Positions 43,760 to 62,343 of a DNA stretch of 64,000 bases are shown here, piece by piece (positions within the stretch are counted from its first letter, which is position 1; each line of letters begins with the position of its first letter). Below the pieces are notes generated by a model that had not been told where the DNA came from, made no database searches, and saw only the letters and a list, made by a program, of their open reading frames with translations. Position numbers and translations under genes: made by a program. Source of the stretch: Goleter apudmare HA4340-LM2 (GTDB lineage Bacteria; Cyanobacteriota; Cyanobacteriia; Cyanobacteriales; Nostocaceae); contig JAHHHF010000070.1 in assembly GCA_019359495.1 (NCBI GenBank), positions 1 to 64,000 of the forward strand, read 5' to 3'.

Positions 43760-43960
43760 GCAGCGTTGCACACCAATCACCTGAGTTTGACGCTGCTGCA
43801 CCGAACGCACAGGTAAAAACCCATTGCCATCATGTAGCAATTCCCACGGTAAATGCGCCAATCCCAACGCCACCCGTTCTGTATCTGGGTTCAACCCTTG
43901 GGCTTCGCTGGTTTGAATTAAATCCAAAATAGTGCAATAAATTTCTTCTTCTTTCTCTGT
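43760..43960 (-). pseudogene. CHAT-domain protease relic
   Basis: The minus-strand frame reads NPDTERVALGLAHLPWELLH then DGNGFLPVRSVQQRQTQVIG. LPWELLHDGxGFL and PVRxVxQRQT are the diagnostic block of CHAT domains (caspase-HetF-associated proteins with TPRs). The block is followed by unrelated sequence, and the catalytic His-Gly and Cys parts are missing. It is therefore a short relic of a larger CHAT gene rather than a working one. Confidence 0.6.
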
Positions 43961-43962
43961 TT

Positions 43963-44032
43963 CCTCTGTCTTGAAAAGTTCTGAGTCGAGGAAGCCTCCG
44001 CTCAGAACTTTTCGCTGCGTCTCTGCGGTTTA
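43963..44032. repeat. Interspersed repeat, related inversely to 60210-60309
   Basis: The reverse complement (AACCGCAGAGACGCAGCGAA, then AAGTTCTGAGCGGAGG, ACTCAGAACTTTTCAAGACA) matches the MITE interior at 60210-60309 over nearly the full length, except that the latter carries about 30 extra bases in the middle. The unit itself folds, since AAGTTCTGAG and CTCAGAACTT are self-complementary. Confidence 0.75.
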
Positions 44033-44047
44033 TTAATGCACTAATTT

Positions 44048-57584: not shown

Positions 57585-58624
57585 TATTTTTTACGGTTAC
57601 GAATTAACAAATAGAGAAAATAAGGAGCGCCAATAGCAGCAGTTACTACGCCACAAGGGAGTTCGATGGGTGCAAATAGGGTTCTGCCTAACAAGTCTGC
57701 GGCAACAACAATCACGCCTCCCAACAATGCCGAGGTGGGAATCAAGCCTTCATGGTTGGTACCTACCAACTGTCGTCCTAAATGGGGTGCAATTAACCCC
57801 ACAAAGCCAATCATTCCCGCAGTGGCGACTCCTGCACCCGCTAAGGCGACACCCACTAGCACCAGTAAACCACGCTGCCATTCCACACGAGTCCCCAGAC
57901 CTTTGGCGACATCATCTCCTAAGTTCAGCGCATTTAAATGTCTTGCTAGCGTCAATGCTATGGGGACAAAAACAATCAACCAAGGTAAGAAAGAAAAAAC
58001 TTGCTCCCAGGTGCGTCCATAGACACTACCAGCCAACCATACCAAAGCATCACTGACGCTGTAGATTTCGCCAAAGGTAATTAACAAGCTCGTGAACGCA
58101 GAGGCGATCGCAGATAAACCCACACCCATCAAAATTAATAGAATCGGGGAACTACCTTTATTCCAAGCCAAAGCGTAAATTAACGCCGCCATCAGTAATG
58201 CACCGGCAAAGGCTGACAGGGGTAATGCATAAATTGGTGCTGCTGGAAACAGTACAATTACTGCGACTGCGGCCAAACTCGCCCCAGCATTGATGCCGAT
58301 AATACCAGGGTCAGCTAGGGGATTACGGGTCAAGCCTTGGAAAATAGTACCCGAAATCGCAAACGCCACGCCTACCATAAAAGCTACTATGGTACGGGGT
58401 AGACGCAGGTTATGAATTACGAAGGCATGGTCTGGGTTGCCTGTATTTATACCCAAGACTGTTTTGATGATATCTAAGGGTGCGATCGGATACTCACCCC
58501 GTCCAACATTCATGACCATCACCACTACAATTACCACTGCCAAACACAGCAGCATCGGTGGTACACGTCGGTCAATCCGCAAAGATATCGCCGAAGAACG
58601 AATGACTAGCCAATCAACCTTCAT
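57584..58624 (-). CDS. Ferric-siderophore ABC transporter permease (FecD type)
   Basis: FecCD/BtuC-family permease of 346 residues with about nine or ten segments. Family marks are [40 protein letters not shown] and [19 protein letters not shown], the last being the coupling helix region. It pairs with the FecC permease whose stop it overlaps by 4 bases (ATGA). The two permeases are homologous but distinct, so the transporter is a heterodimer with FecE. The binding protein is not in this operon. Confidence 0.95.
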
Positions 58625-59652
58625 TTTTTCACCTTTGACTTAGCCAAATACACAAAAAAAGGAGCGCCCACGAGTGCTGTCATCACACCTACAGGTAATT
58701 CCTGGGGTTTGAGCAACACACGGGCAGCAATATCTGCAACTAAGAGTAAAATTGCGCCTAACAATGCTGAATAAGGCAAAATCCAACGGTAATCAGCCTT
58801 AATGAAAAATCTCACGACGTGGGGAACGACTAAACCGATAAAGCCGATAGGCCCAGCAATAGCTACTGATGTCCCCGCCAATATCACAACGCTAATAGCA
58901 GTAATGATTTTCACCCAGGCTGTTTGTTGCCCCAAGCCTTTAGCGACATCCTCACCTAGACTCATGGTAGTAATTTGTCTACCAAGGGCAAAAGCCACTA
59001 CTAAACCAATCACCACGAAGGGTAATGCCTGGAAGAACATATTGATATCACGTCCAGCCAATGAACCCGCTAACCAAAATCTAATTTCTTCTAAGGTGCG
59101 TTGACTGACGATGAGAATAGCAGTGGTCACGGAAGAGATGAGTGCAGTTAAAGCTGCACCTGCTACCGTCAGATTTAATGGGGTAGCTCCTCCCCGTCCC
59201 AAAGAACCAAGGAAGTAGACTAATATTGCCGTAACTCCTGCACCTAGAAACGCCACAATCGTGTAAACATTCAAGGATGCGCTGCCAAAGACAAAAGTCG
59301 CTACAACTACTGCTACTGCTGCGCCTGACTGAATACCCAAGATCCCTGGATCTGCCAGAGGGTTACGCGTCAAACCTTGCATTAAGGCTCCAGATACGGC
59401 CAGGGCTGACCCTACAAGAATAGCAATTAGCGATCGCGGTAATCTCACAGTCTGAATTACTAAATGTTCATAGGAACCATCAAAGCTGACAAAGGATGCC
59501 AAAATCTTCTCCAGAGGGATGTCTGCCGCTCCCAACGTGACACTATATACCAAGGAAATTAGTAGGATTATCAGTCCTAAAACCAATCCTACTAAAGGTG
59601 ATACTGACGGTGTTTTCCAGCCTCTAGGTAATGCTGTGGTTGCTTTTGTCAT
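58621..59652 (-). CDS. Ferric-siderophore ABC transporter permease (FecC type)
   Basis: Permease of 343 residues with about nine or ten segments. Marks are [40 protein letters not shown] and [17 protein letters not shown]. It is the first gene of fecC-fecD-fecE-(COG4280-like)-fetA-fetB. The upstream 10-mer AGTTAAGAAT (59731-59740, minus-strand ATTCTTAACT) is shared with both AraC promoters. It starts 79 bases from that site. Confidence 0.95.
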
Positions 59653-60117
59653 GCTCTTGCTGTTTTGACCACTGGTTTTTGCTGCTTGATCATTAATACT
59701 CTCAACAGTTAACTATGCTTCTGGCATCCTAGTTAAGAATTTTTCTAGTAAGTAATCAGTTGTTAAATCATCATGGTTCTGGGAGCTAGCAAATATATAC
59801 ACTGTTTTGATGGTAGTCATTTAAAATAATACTTTAAACTTATTGCTACCTTTTTTCAACAGATATCGAAAAAAATTTTACAGTTTCTTGATATGATTTC
59901 TTGTTAGGTTCTGAGTTTTTTTACACTAGCTATCAACCATGCCGAGACTGATCAATGTTTGCAATAATTGCTTAAACGCTAGCATAAAATAATACAAACG
60001 CACTTTGTAAAAAGAATGTGACAAATATCACTATAGGGGTATATCACTAAAGCGGAATCGGCAGAGTACGGTTGTTTGTCCTCACCCACCTTGCATCTGT
60101 CACCAAGATTATTGAAA
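59653..60117. promoter_or_regulatory. fecC upstream region
   Basis: Gene-free. It carries the 10-mer shared with the AraC promoters (59731-59740) and, further up, a CRP-like dyad TGTGA-CAAATA-TCACT at 60017-60032, one base from the TGTGAN6TCACA consensus. It is about 365 bases from fecC, so its link to that gene is weak. No Fur box was recognised with confidence. Confidence 0.4.
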
Positions 60118-60122
60118 TTGGT

Positions 60123-60379
60123 TAGGACTAGCCCTTTCAAGGTGACTCGTGAAATTTCTTTTTTTCTCTCTGCTGACTCTGCTTCTCTGCGGTTAAAAAG
60201 TAATTAATTTAACCGCAGAGGGCGCAGCGAAAAGTCTGAGCGGAGGAAGCCACCGTAGACACCCGGAGGGTGGCTTGCCACAGGCATCAGAACTTTTCAA
60301 GACAGAGGACACGGAGGTGAGCGGTTATACAAGTCTTTATTTTCAAGAATTTTGATGCACCTTGAAAGGGCTGGTCCTA
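60123..60379. mobile_element. MITE-like element, 257 bp with 22-bp inverted ends
   Basis: The left end 60123-60144 (TAGGACTAGCCCTTTCAAGG, then TG) is inverted at 60358-60379 with one mismatch in 22. TTGGT flanks both ends directly (60118-60122 and 60380-60384), a 5-bp target duplication. Inside lies a 13-bp inverted repeat CTCTGCGGTTAAA/TTTAACCGCAGAG (60185-60197 and 60208-60220) and a repeat shared inversely with 43963-44032. It has no coding frame, as expected for a miniature element moved by a transposase encoded elsewhere. Confidence 0.85.
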
Positions 60380-60518
60380 TTGGTATTAGTTTGGCGGATC
60401 AGCGATCGCACCTGCCGGCAACTTTATTACCGCAAAATTTAGTATGTTTTTATACAAAAGTCTTTCGAGCTTTATTACTAATAATTATTCTTAACTTGAA
60501 ATATATAATCGCAACATC

Positions 60519-61505
60519 ATGACCACGATCATTTCACATCAGGAGTTCGACGAACAAGTCGATTTAGTCAAAGAATATACAGATACAGAAAGTAATTACT
60601 CGGAAGATTTGTGGCAATATCCCCAACAATTCGGTCAGGGAAATATCTTAAATATTGAGTTACGCCAGGGATTTAACCTGACACTTGAAGACTACCAAGT
60701 ACATCAAAACATCACTATTGACTATCCAGAAATGGTGCATCCCTTGGGATTCTATTTTCAAATTTCCGGTGGGTTAAATTGTCGGCGTTATGGCTTAAAT
60801 TGTGCGGGGAATAGCATCATATCAGGCAGTGGTTTTATACCACAATTATTTCATGAGAGTTTGTCTAACGAGCCAAATAAAGCCGTCAAAGTGCATATAG
60901 AACCTGGAATCTTCAAAAGATTTATGGGTTTTGATGATACCATTCCCTCCCAACTCAAACACCTATTTCGCCAACCCGATCAAAAGCACTGCTTTCACAA
61001 CGGAATTATTACCAGCCAAATGCAAATAGCCTTGCAGCAGATTTGGCAATGTCCCTTTCAAGGCTTGGTGAAACGTCTCTACCTAGAGAGTAAAATTTTA
61101 GAATTAATCGCTTTGCGTTTACAACAACAAATGCAAGCAGAAACAACAGAAAATTGTCGTCATACCTTAAAAAAAGGTTTAGTTGATCAGATTCATCATG
61201 CCAAACATATTTTAGAGTGCCGTATTGACAACCCTCCTTCAGTTTTGGAATTGGCGCAGCTAGTTGGACTGAATCACCATCAGCTCAAGCAAGGCTTTCG
61301 TAAAGTTTTGGGTAGTACAGTTTTTGGCTACTTGCACAAATTCCGCATGGAACAGGCACGGTTACTTTTATCTGAAGGTAAAATGAGCGTTGCTGAAGTA
61401 GCGAATACTGTGGGTTATGAACATTTAGGTCACTTTGCAGGTGCCTTTAAACAGAAATTTGGTATCACTCCCAGTGCTTATTTAAAGGGAGAAAATCTTA
61501 AGTAA
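60519..61505 (+). CDS. AraC family regulator, PchR-like, second copy
   Basis: Regulator of 328 residues. The N-terminal sensor half resembles the first copy (SQMQIALQQIWQCPFQGLVK), and the double HTH (about 225-325) reads PSVLELAQLVGLNHHQLKQG and VANTVGYEHLGHFAGAFKQK, with GITPSAY. PchR-type proteins activate ferric-siderophore uptake genes. The 10-mer ATTCTTAACT (60487-60496) lies 23-32 bases upstream of its ATG. Its 3' end overlaps the convergent Rpn gene by 8 bases. It may regulate the fec operon or the receptor at 62536. Confidence 0.92.
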   Translation: MTTIISHQEFDEQVDLVKEYTDTESNYSEDLWQYPQQFGQGNILNIELRQGFNLTLEDYQVHQNITIDYPEMVHPLGFYFQISGGLNCRRYGLNCAGNSIISGSGFIPQLFHESLSNEPNKAVKVHIEPGIFKRFMGFDDTIPSQLKHLFRQPDQKHCFHNGIITSQMQIALQQIWQCPFQGLVKRLYLESKILELIALRLQQQMQAETTENCRHTLKKGLVDQIHHAKHILECRIDNPPSVLELAQLVGLNHHQLKQGFRKVLGSTVFGYLHKFRMEQARLLLSEGKMSVAEVANTVGYEHLGHFAGAFKQKFGITPSAYLKGENLK

Positions 61506-62343
61506 TTTCTAACTGTTGCACCACCTCAAGAGACAAACCTGTTAATTTAGCTACAGTCTCCGGGGAAATTCCTTCTTTGAGCATATTAATGGCAACACAC
61601 CTAATCCCCTCTTCTCGACCTTCTTCTCGACCTTCTTCTCGACCTTCTTCTCGACCTTCTTCTCGACCTTCTTCTCGACCTTCTTCTCGACCTTCTTCTC
61701 GACCTTTTTCTAGACCTTCAGCTACTATTGATTGATAGATGACTGACTCACGCATAATGTCTCTCCTAAGTAAACGTTGAATCACTTCCTCTTCTAATAC
61801 TAGCCCAGCTAAAAGGGCTGCTGATGCTGTAATATTACTTTGCGTTCTTCTGTCGGTGATTTGATCGATTTGAGTAGCCACTTGCTGTAATGCGTTGATT
61901 TTATCGCTGGTGTTACTTAAAGTAGCAAATGGCAGTAAGCCTGGAGTTTGCAGAAATATGTCTGTGGATTGCTCCCACAGACGGATTACTGTAAATTGAT
62001 GTTGCAAATTTTCAAGGGAAAAGGCTGTTTGATAGACAAGTTCAGATGTAGATTTAGTCAAATAAATGACTACTTGTCGCATTCGCTTTTGAGGAAAACG
62101 ACGATACCCGCGCAAGCGGTAATCTGCCATGCGAAAGGGAATAGCAACATCGGGTTGAGTTTGAAATTCAACGTGCAGCACAATTTCATCTGATTGCAGT
62201 AATATCAAGGCATCTGCACGGATTGGTTCAAGAGATAATTCTTTGGGACTTAATTGAGTGAGAGTAATTGGTTCTCCTAAAAGCCAGGTGGCAAAGTCGG
62301 TAGCAAAATTTTCAGCAAGGAACTTGCAGACATTATCAAACAT
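61498..62343 (-). CDS. Rpn family PD-(D/E)XK nuclease with REEG tandem repeat
   Basis: Protein of 281 residues. The N-terminal half is the recombination-promoting nuclease (RpnA/DUF4351-type) fold: ADALILLQSDEIVLHVEFQT carries the PD-(D/E)XK-like D..ExQ core, and RRDIMRESVIYQSIVAEGLE is the usual tail start. Near residues 225-258 the sequence is GREE repeated eight times, with very high charge. The family is widespread in cyanobacteria with many near copies. Function in Nostoc is unknown; nuclease activity is inferred. It converges on the AraC gene with an 8-base overlap. Confidence 0.9.
   Translation of the reverse strand: MFDNVCKFLAENFATDFATWLLGEPITLTQLSPKELSLEPIRADALILLQSDEIVLHVEFQTQPDVAIPFRMADYRLRGYRRFPQKRMRQVVIYLTKSTSELVYQTAFSLENLQHQFTVIRLWEQSTDIFLQTPGLLPFATLSNTSDKINALQQVATQIDQITDRRTQSNITASAALLAGLVLEEEVIQRLLRRDIMRESVIYQSIVAEGLEKGREEGREEGREEGREEGREEGREEGREEGREEGIRCVAINMLKEGISPETVAKLTGLSLEVVQQLEIT
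61610..61706 (-). repeat. 12-bp tandem repeat inside the Rpn gene
   Basis: The unit TTCTTCTCGACC occurs 7-8 times in perfect copies (plus-strand reading), then a degenerate TTTTTCTAGACC. It encodes the REEG repeat. The unit is a multiple of three, so copy number can change without frameshift. Confidence 0.9.

Follow-up and report, generated by a model that had tools for sequence, protein, structure and literature searches.

A MITE of Goleter apudmare with nested ends that may be read by two unrelated transposases

The 257-bp element lying between two TTGGT duplications in the stretch of DNA analyzed here (the window; 64,000 nucleotides of the genome of Goleter apudmare HA4340-LM2) is a real MITE, that is, a non-autonomous transposon. 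Two modes of insertion, from ends separated by six bases, are seen in its family, and the likely reason is that two unrelated transposases can each move the same element. We consider it probable that the MITE is mobilized in trans by an IS4-type transposase, acting on the inner end, and by an IS701-type transposase, acting on an outer tip, the two ends being nested one in the other. Four observations underlie this explanation: there are two classes of ends and duplications, both classes occur among near-identical copies, their properties match those of two IS families, and the insertions show a target bias.

The arms of the window copy (60123–60144 and 60358–60379) are 213 bp apart and are complementary at 21 of their 22 positions, with a single T/C difference, and no open reading frame of 80 aa or more was found within the 257 bp (Table 1). 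The 21/22 match, the 257-bp length without a gene and the TTGGT on both flanks had been reported in an earlier note on this DNA, and they are present as it described them. When the 64-kb window was scanned for pairs of 22-bp arms placed 50–400 bp apart (inner 11 bp exact, at most one mismatch per 22 bp), this pair was the sole match, and it is flanked by identical 5-mers; 20 shuffles of the window gave no pair under the same criteria. The single-strand folding of the element is unusually strong (z −8.8), as expected from its inverted ends and internal hairpin. The Rfam search returned no match to the element, and the comparison with phages returned none either. The internal segment of about 81 bp is a small repeat nested in other repeats: similar DNA was found at 43955–44037 of the window and in L011 and L015, in the case of L011 inside an IS701-type MITE, and elsewhere it adjoins GCAGAG-type repeats.

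Table 1. Position of the element and of its parts in the window
Feature	Position	Strand	Remark
Unrelated dispersed repeat, its end being the insertion target	60070–60122		Copies L052 (94.5% identical) and L053 (90.6% identical)
Left target duplication TTGGT, 5 bp	60118–60122		Single in the paralogous empty sites L052 and L053
Outer tip TAGGAC, left	60123–60128	+	Tip common to the IS701-type YAGRACTTACGC family
Inner end TAGCCCTTTCAAGGTG, left	60129–60144	+	Same as the IS4-type inverted repeat
Internal hairpin CTCTGCGGTTAAA/TTTAACCGCAGAG	60185–60220		Kept across the family
Internal segment of about 81 bp, nested repeat	60222–60302		Missing from the short (158–167 bp) copies; elsewhere in the genome
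Inner end CACCTTGAAAGGGCTG, right	60358–60373	-	One mismatch compared with the left end
Outer tip, right	60374–60379	-	The + strand reads GTCCTA
Right target duplication TTGGT, 5 bp	60380–60384		Single in the paralogous empty sites

The element is far from being alone. In its own genome (6.7 Mb in 113 contigs) it has 61 matches, and the 22-bp end has 20 (10 forward and 10 reverse, with at most three mismatches), compared with none for the reversed pattern, which was used as a control. Related DNA is present in 155 of the 208 genomes of the bacterial family, and the plasmids of Trichormus show only partial matches. The repeat into which the window copy was inserted, whose end reads AATTGGTAT, is found elsewhere in the genome with a single TTGGT (...ATTGAAATTGGTAT... 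and ...ATTGTAATTGGTATTA...), and its copies L052 and L053 are paralogous empty sites for this insertion. A search for an empty site at the level of strains found none: the host genus is represented by one genome, and the only close match to the locus elsewhere (G035, 82% identical) contains the AraC gene, not the intergenic flank. The small size of the element is all that speaks for a chance inverted repeat, the alternative raised in the earlier note; with the other copies, the scan of the window and its shuffles, and the paralogous empty sites all refuting it, its probability is negligible. Inverted repeats, a target duplication, a short length without a transposase gene and dispersed copies are all typical of MITEs, as are ends common to an autonomous element, here L093, which has perfect 22-bp ends and an IS4-type transposase. 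The checks that the earlier note had proposed gave further copies of the end, 5-bp duplications at other tipped copies, full-length elements with the same ends and a transposase, and the paralogous empty sites with one TTGGT. Its description of the element as a MITE stands, but its undivided 22-bp end in fact comprises 6 + 16 bp, and insertion occurs in two ways.

This division became clear from 80 distinct copies with both ends, obtained from many genomes by taking the best matches instead of a random sample. The tip (TAGRAC, at most one mismatch) was present on both sides in 29 of them, and 15 of these 29 have a perfect 5-bp duplication directly outside the tip, compared with 0.61 expected from the re-pairing of flanks; no other duplication length stands out in this class. 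The tip reads TAGGAC in 20 tipped copies, TAGAAC in seven and CAGGAC in one. In the remaining 51 copies, the end is the inner 16 bp (TAGCCCTTTCAAGGTG); 5-bp duplications are absent from the outer position in all of them, and 24 have duplications of 9–12 bp with at most one mismatch. Together with a single tipped copy, L220, which has near-tips, this gives 25 copies in which the long duplication adjoins the 16-bp core (11 bp in 14 copies, 10 bp in five, 12 bp in five, and 9 bp in one), while flank re-pairing gives an expectation well below one per length and class. The two duplication lengths are close to half a helix turn and to one turn. Most of the copies in the own genome of the element share only the inner 16 bp, not the whole 22 bp. 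Both modes are found in one genome, G173, where the bodies differ at 0–5 of 167 positions: L124, L169, and L194 have 5-bp duplications, and L190 (two copies), L191, L192, and L193 have duplications of 10–12 bp.

The window copy is one of those with a 5-bp duplication and, therefore, was not inserted by the IS4-type, inner-end route. On its own, it would suit an ordinary MITE of a single family, with 22-bp ends and 5-bp duplications, as would the fact that tipped copies are common; the core-only copies would then be degraded or due to chance. However, this is refuted by the 25 copies with 9–12-bp duplications exactly at the core boundary, for an expectation well below one, and the intact IS4-type relatives described below show the same long duplications, so that we regard it as very improbable. 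It was also considered whether the hexamer is only a 5′ flap that an 11-bp insertion took over from its donor; this was rejected by reasoning, since it does not explain the identical flanking 5-mers.

The inner end is that of an IS4-type element. At L034, in the own genome, the 22-bp end is followed by the start of a transposase-like frame (read by eye), and complete elements of about 1.5 kb with this end at their borders occur in related genomes, L093, for example, having both ends perfect; from core to core, the full copies measure 1472 bp. Their transposase carries the DDE_Tnp_1 domain, its best match being the IS4-family model NF033592 (95 bits, below the cut-off of 115), and Westiellopsis prolifica is among the genomes that carry it. 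In the own genome, this transposase was not found at E 1e-20 or better, and no intact transposase of the IS4 or IS701 type was detected at the thresholds used. High-copy relatives with intact frames and a transposase about 50% identical are present in G028, G022, and G061. They end at TACCCC or CAGCCC, without the tip. Of the 19 copies examined, 14 have 10–12-bp duplications directly at the core, and none has a perfect 5-bp duplication at the outer register. The relatives from Desulfobacterota start at CAGCCCTTTCAAGGT, also without the tip. Because the relatives make duplications of 10–12 bp and have ends without the tip, the 9–12-bp mode is the usual one for this group of IS4-type transposases. 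The IS4-group review distinguishes families that duplicate about 10 bp, one turn of DNA, from those that duplicate about 5 bp, half a turn (De Palmenaer et al. 2008; PMC2266710). The partner of the element agrees with the IS4 family described there in its DDE_Tnp_1 domain and in inner-end duplications of 9–12 bp, approximately one helix turn, but differs in that many copies here have an extra hexamer and 5-bp duplications, and in its score below the NF033592 cut-off.

The outer tip, TAGGACT, also forms the tip of another abundant family, whose ends read YAGRACTTACGC and which is found in the same genomes. Its autonomous elements, 1235 bp long in G117 and similar in size elsewhere, encode an IS701-type transposase (NF049921, 420 bits, compared with a cut-off of 250). 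Duplications of 5 bp were observed in 31 of the 40 pairs, compared with 0.84 expected, and also at several intact copies. IS701 itself is listed with 4-bp duplications (PMC2266710), a reported length that differs from the 5 bp found here. The tips of this family read TAGGAC, CAGGAC, and TAGAAC, the variants seen in the tipped MITE copies, and these copies show the combination that characterizes the family, the tip YAGRACT followed outward by a 5-bp duplication. The element does not contain the full IS701-type inverted repeat, YAGGACTTACGCA; after TAGGACT, the bases are TACGCA in the IS701-type family and AGCCCT in the element. With TAGGACT alone in common, the element works like an IS701-type MITE but is not filed as one. 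Compared with this family and its own MITEs, therefore, the outer tip, the tip variants, the 5-bp duplications and the host genomes are the same, while the inner part of the end is unrelated. From the matching tip, its variants and the duplication length, we infer that the IS701-type transposase makes the 5-bp insertions, the similarity at sequence level extending over 7 bp.

The competing proposal is that of one IS4-type transposase with two registers, which would recognize all 22 bp and place its cut at the inner end, duplicating about 11 bp, or 6 bp outward, duplicating 5 bp. Many full-length IS4-type copies in other genomes carry the tip, as would be expected if the enzyme had changed and gained a second position for cutting. 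The 5-bp duplication TACTA, without mismatch, surrounds a 7.15-kb composite that has IS4-type ends, four of five positions match at L094, and the end and the duplication length both shift by 6 bp. Nevertheless, the nearest families with many intact copies give only 10–12 bp (14 of 19 copies), the tip, its variants and the 5-bp length belong to an independent IS701-type family of the same genomes, and the IS4-group review assigns the two duplication lengths, about 10 bp and about 5 bp, to separate families (PMC2266710). We thus regard a single enzyme as unlikely, though still worth serious consideration. The full-length IS4-type copies closest to the element are mostly without any duplication. 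The composite (L112 229–7394, in G014) has the same 22-bp ends, and its cargo includes a 1524-aa repeat-rich (GGxGxD) frame, a smaller frame (about 177 aa) and, in addition, an AraC-like regulator.

Under the explanation by two transposases, recognition in the 22-bp ends would have two layers, one nested in the other. At the inner 16 bp, the IS4-type inverted repeat, the transposase would cut and duplicate 9–12 bp, usually 11; at the outer 6–7 bp (TAGGACT), the IS701-type tip, the second transposase, acting on TAGGACTAGCCC ends, would cut 6 bp further out and duplicate 5 bp. An inner-end insertion into a TARGAC-ended target would acquire the outer tip, and, once tipped, the element could move by the IS701-type route; it is by this 5-bp route that the window copy would have entered the end of the other repeat. 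That the element is the substrate of two transposases through ends 6 bp apart, and that its tip is in addition renewed at tip-like targets, is a fuller version toward which we lean slightly.

The acquisition of tips is suggested by the targets themselves. Inner-end insertions favor the palindromic target (T)AA-GTCYTA...TARGAC-TTA: seven of the 25 lie at the exact boundary, with at most two mismatches from TAGGACTTACGC, compared with 4.7e-5 per random position, and this bias tends to put TARGAC beside the core. Since the IS4-type enzyme favors TARGAC-ended targets, IS701-type tips included, an inner-end insertion may gain an outer tip. Of these seven insertions, all at the boundaries of TAGGACT ends, most are in IS701-type ends, and one (L012) is in an end of the element's own kind. 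In G121, near-identical copies differ more in their tips than in their bodies, as would fit a renewal of tips from targets. Inner-end insertions beside own-kind ends also occur as tandem copies that share one duplication (L190 in G173; L012 and L045 in G000), and in G073 an inner-end insertion adjoins an intact IS701-type IS (L368). No hybrid element was found that joins an end of one type to an end of the other and has a 5-bp duplication of its own; the single match, L161, is a case of nesting.

The frequency of inner-end insertions into IS701-type tips (L161, L163, L220, and the intact IS at L368) also lends something to a different proposal, in which insertions at both ends of an IS701-type element were followed by deletion of the middle by recombination, leaving the 5-bp duplication of that element around the MITE. 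Each copy, however, would need two insertions and a deletion, and there are at least 15 tipped copies with perfect, mostly different 5-bp duplications, six of them in the single genome G121. Moreover, the bodies of most tipped copies are nearly identical to the consensus, and the target in the window is an unrelated repeat with single-TTGGT paralogs. We therefore consider recombination improbable.

With respect to its surroundings, the element is part of an iron-transport region and lies between a gene for a FecCD permease (58621–59652, - strand) and one for an AraC-type regulator (60519–61505, + strand), whose start is 134 bp beyond the end of the right TTGGT. The earlier note suggested that the element may affect fecC or the AraC gene; a promoter scan gave matches at chance level and none inside the element. 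Two tandem 16-bp repeats upstream of the AraC gene, ATATCACTATAGGGGT and ATATCACTAAAGCGGA (60025–60056), are possibly regulator sites. The 281-aa open reading frame at 61498–62343 (- strand) has tandem GREE repeats near the C-terminus and no Pfam match above the cut-off.

As a MITE, the element is ordinary; its family is widespread and possibly related to the MITEs already described from Anabaena. Nezha and other MITEs of Anabaena and Nostoc (Zhou et al. 2008; Chen et al. 2009; Wolk et al. 2010), as cited in PMC10969869, are likewise without genes, have inverted ends and come from the same bacterial family, a likeness by description only. As in type I MITEs, whose ends are shared with a known IS, the ends of the element match those of a transposase-bearing element, which is consistent with mobilization in trans; they differ in matching two IS families at two nested registers. 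Among the open papers searched, no ends with two registers and two duplication lengths were found, nor any paper with these end sequences in a context of mobile DNA.

The ends and the duplication length of a MITE usually serve to assign it to a single parent transposase, and one family here shows the signatures of two. This is a warning for annotation, as end boundaries and duplication lengths taken from few copies can mislead, and it offers a case, open to testing, in which a single DNA end would be read in two registers. If true, it would explain the persistence and spread of a gene-less element after the loss of either partner.
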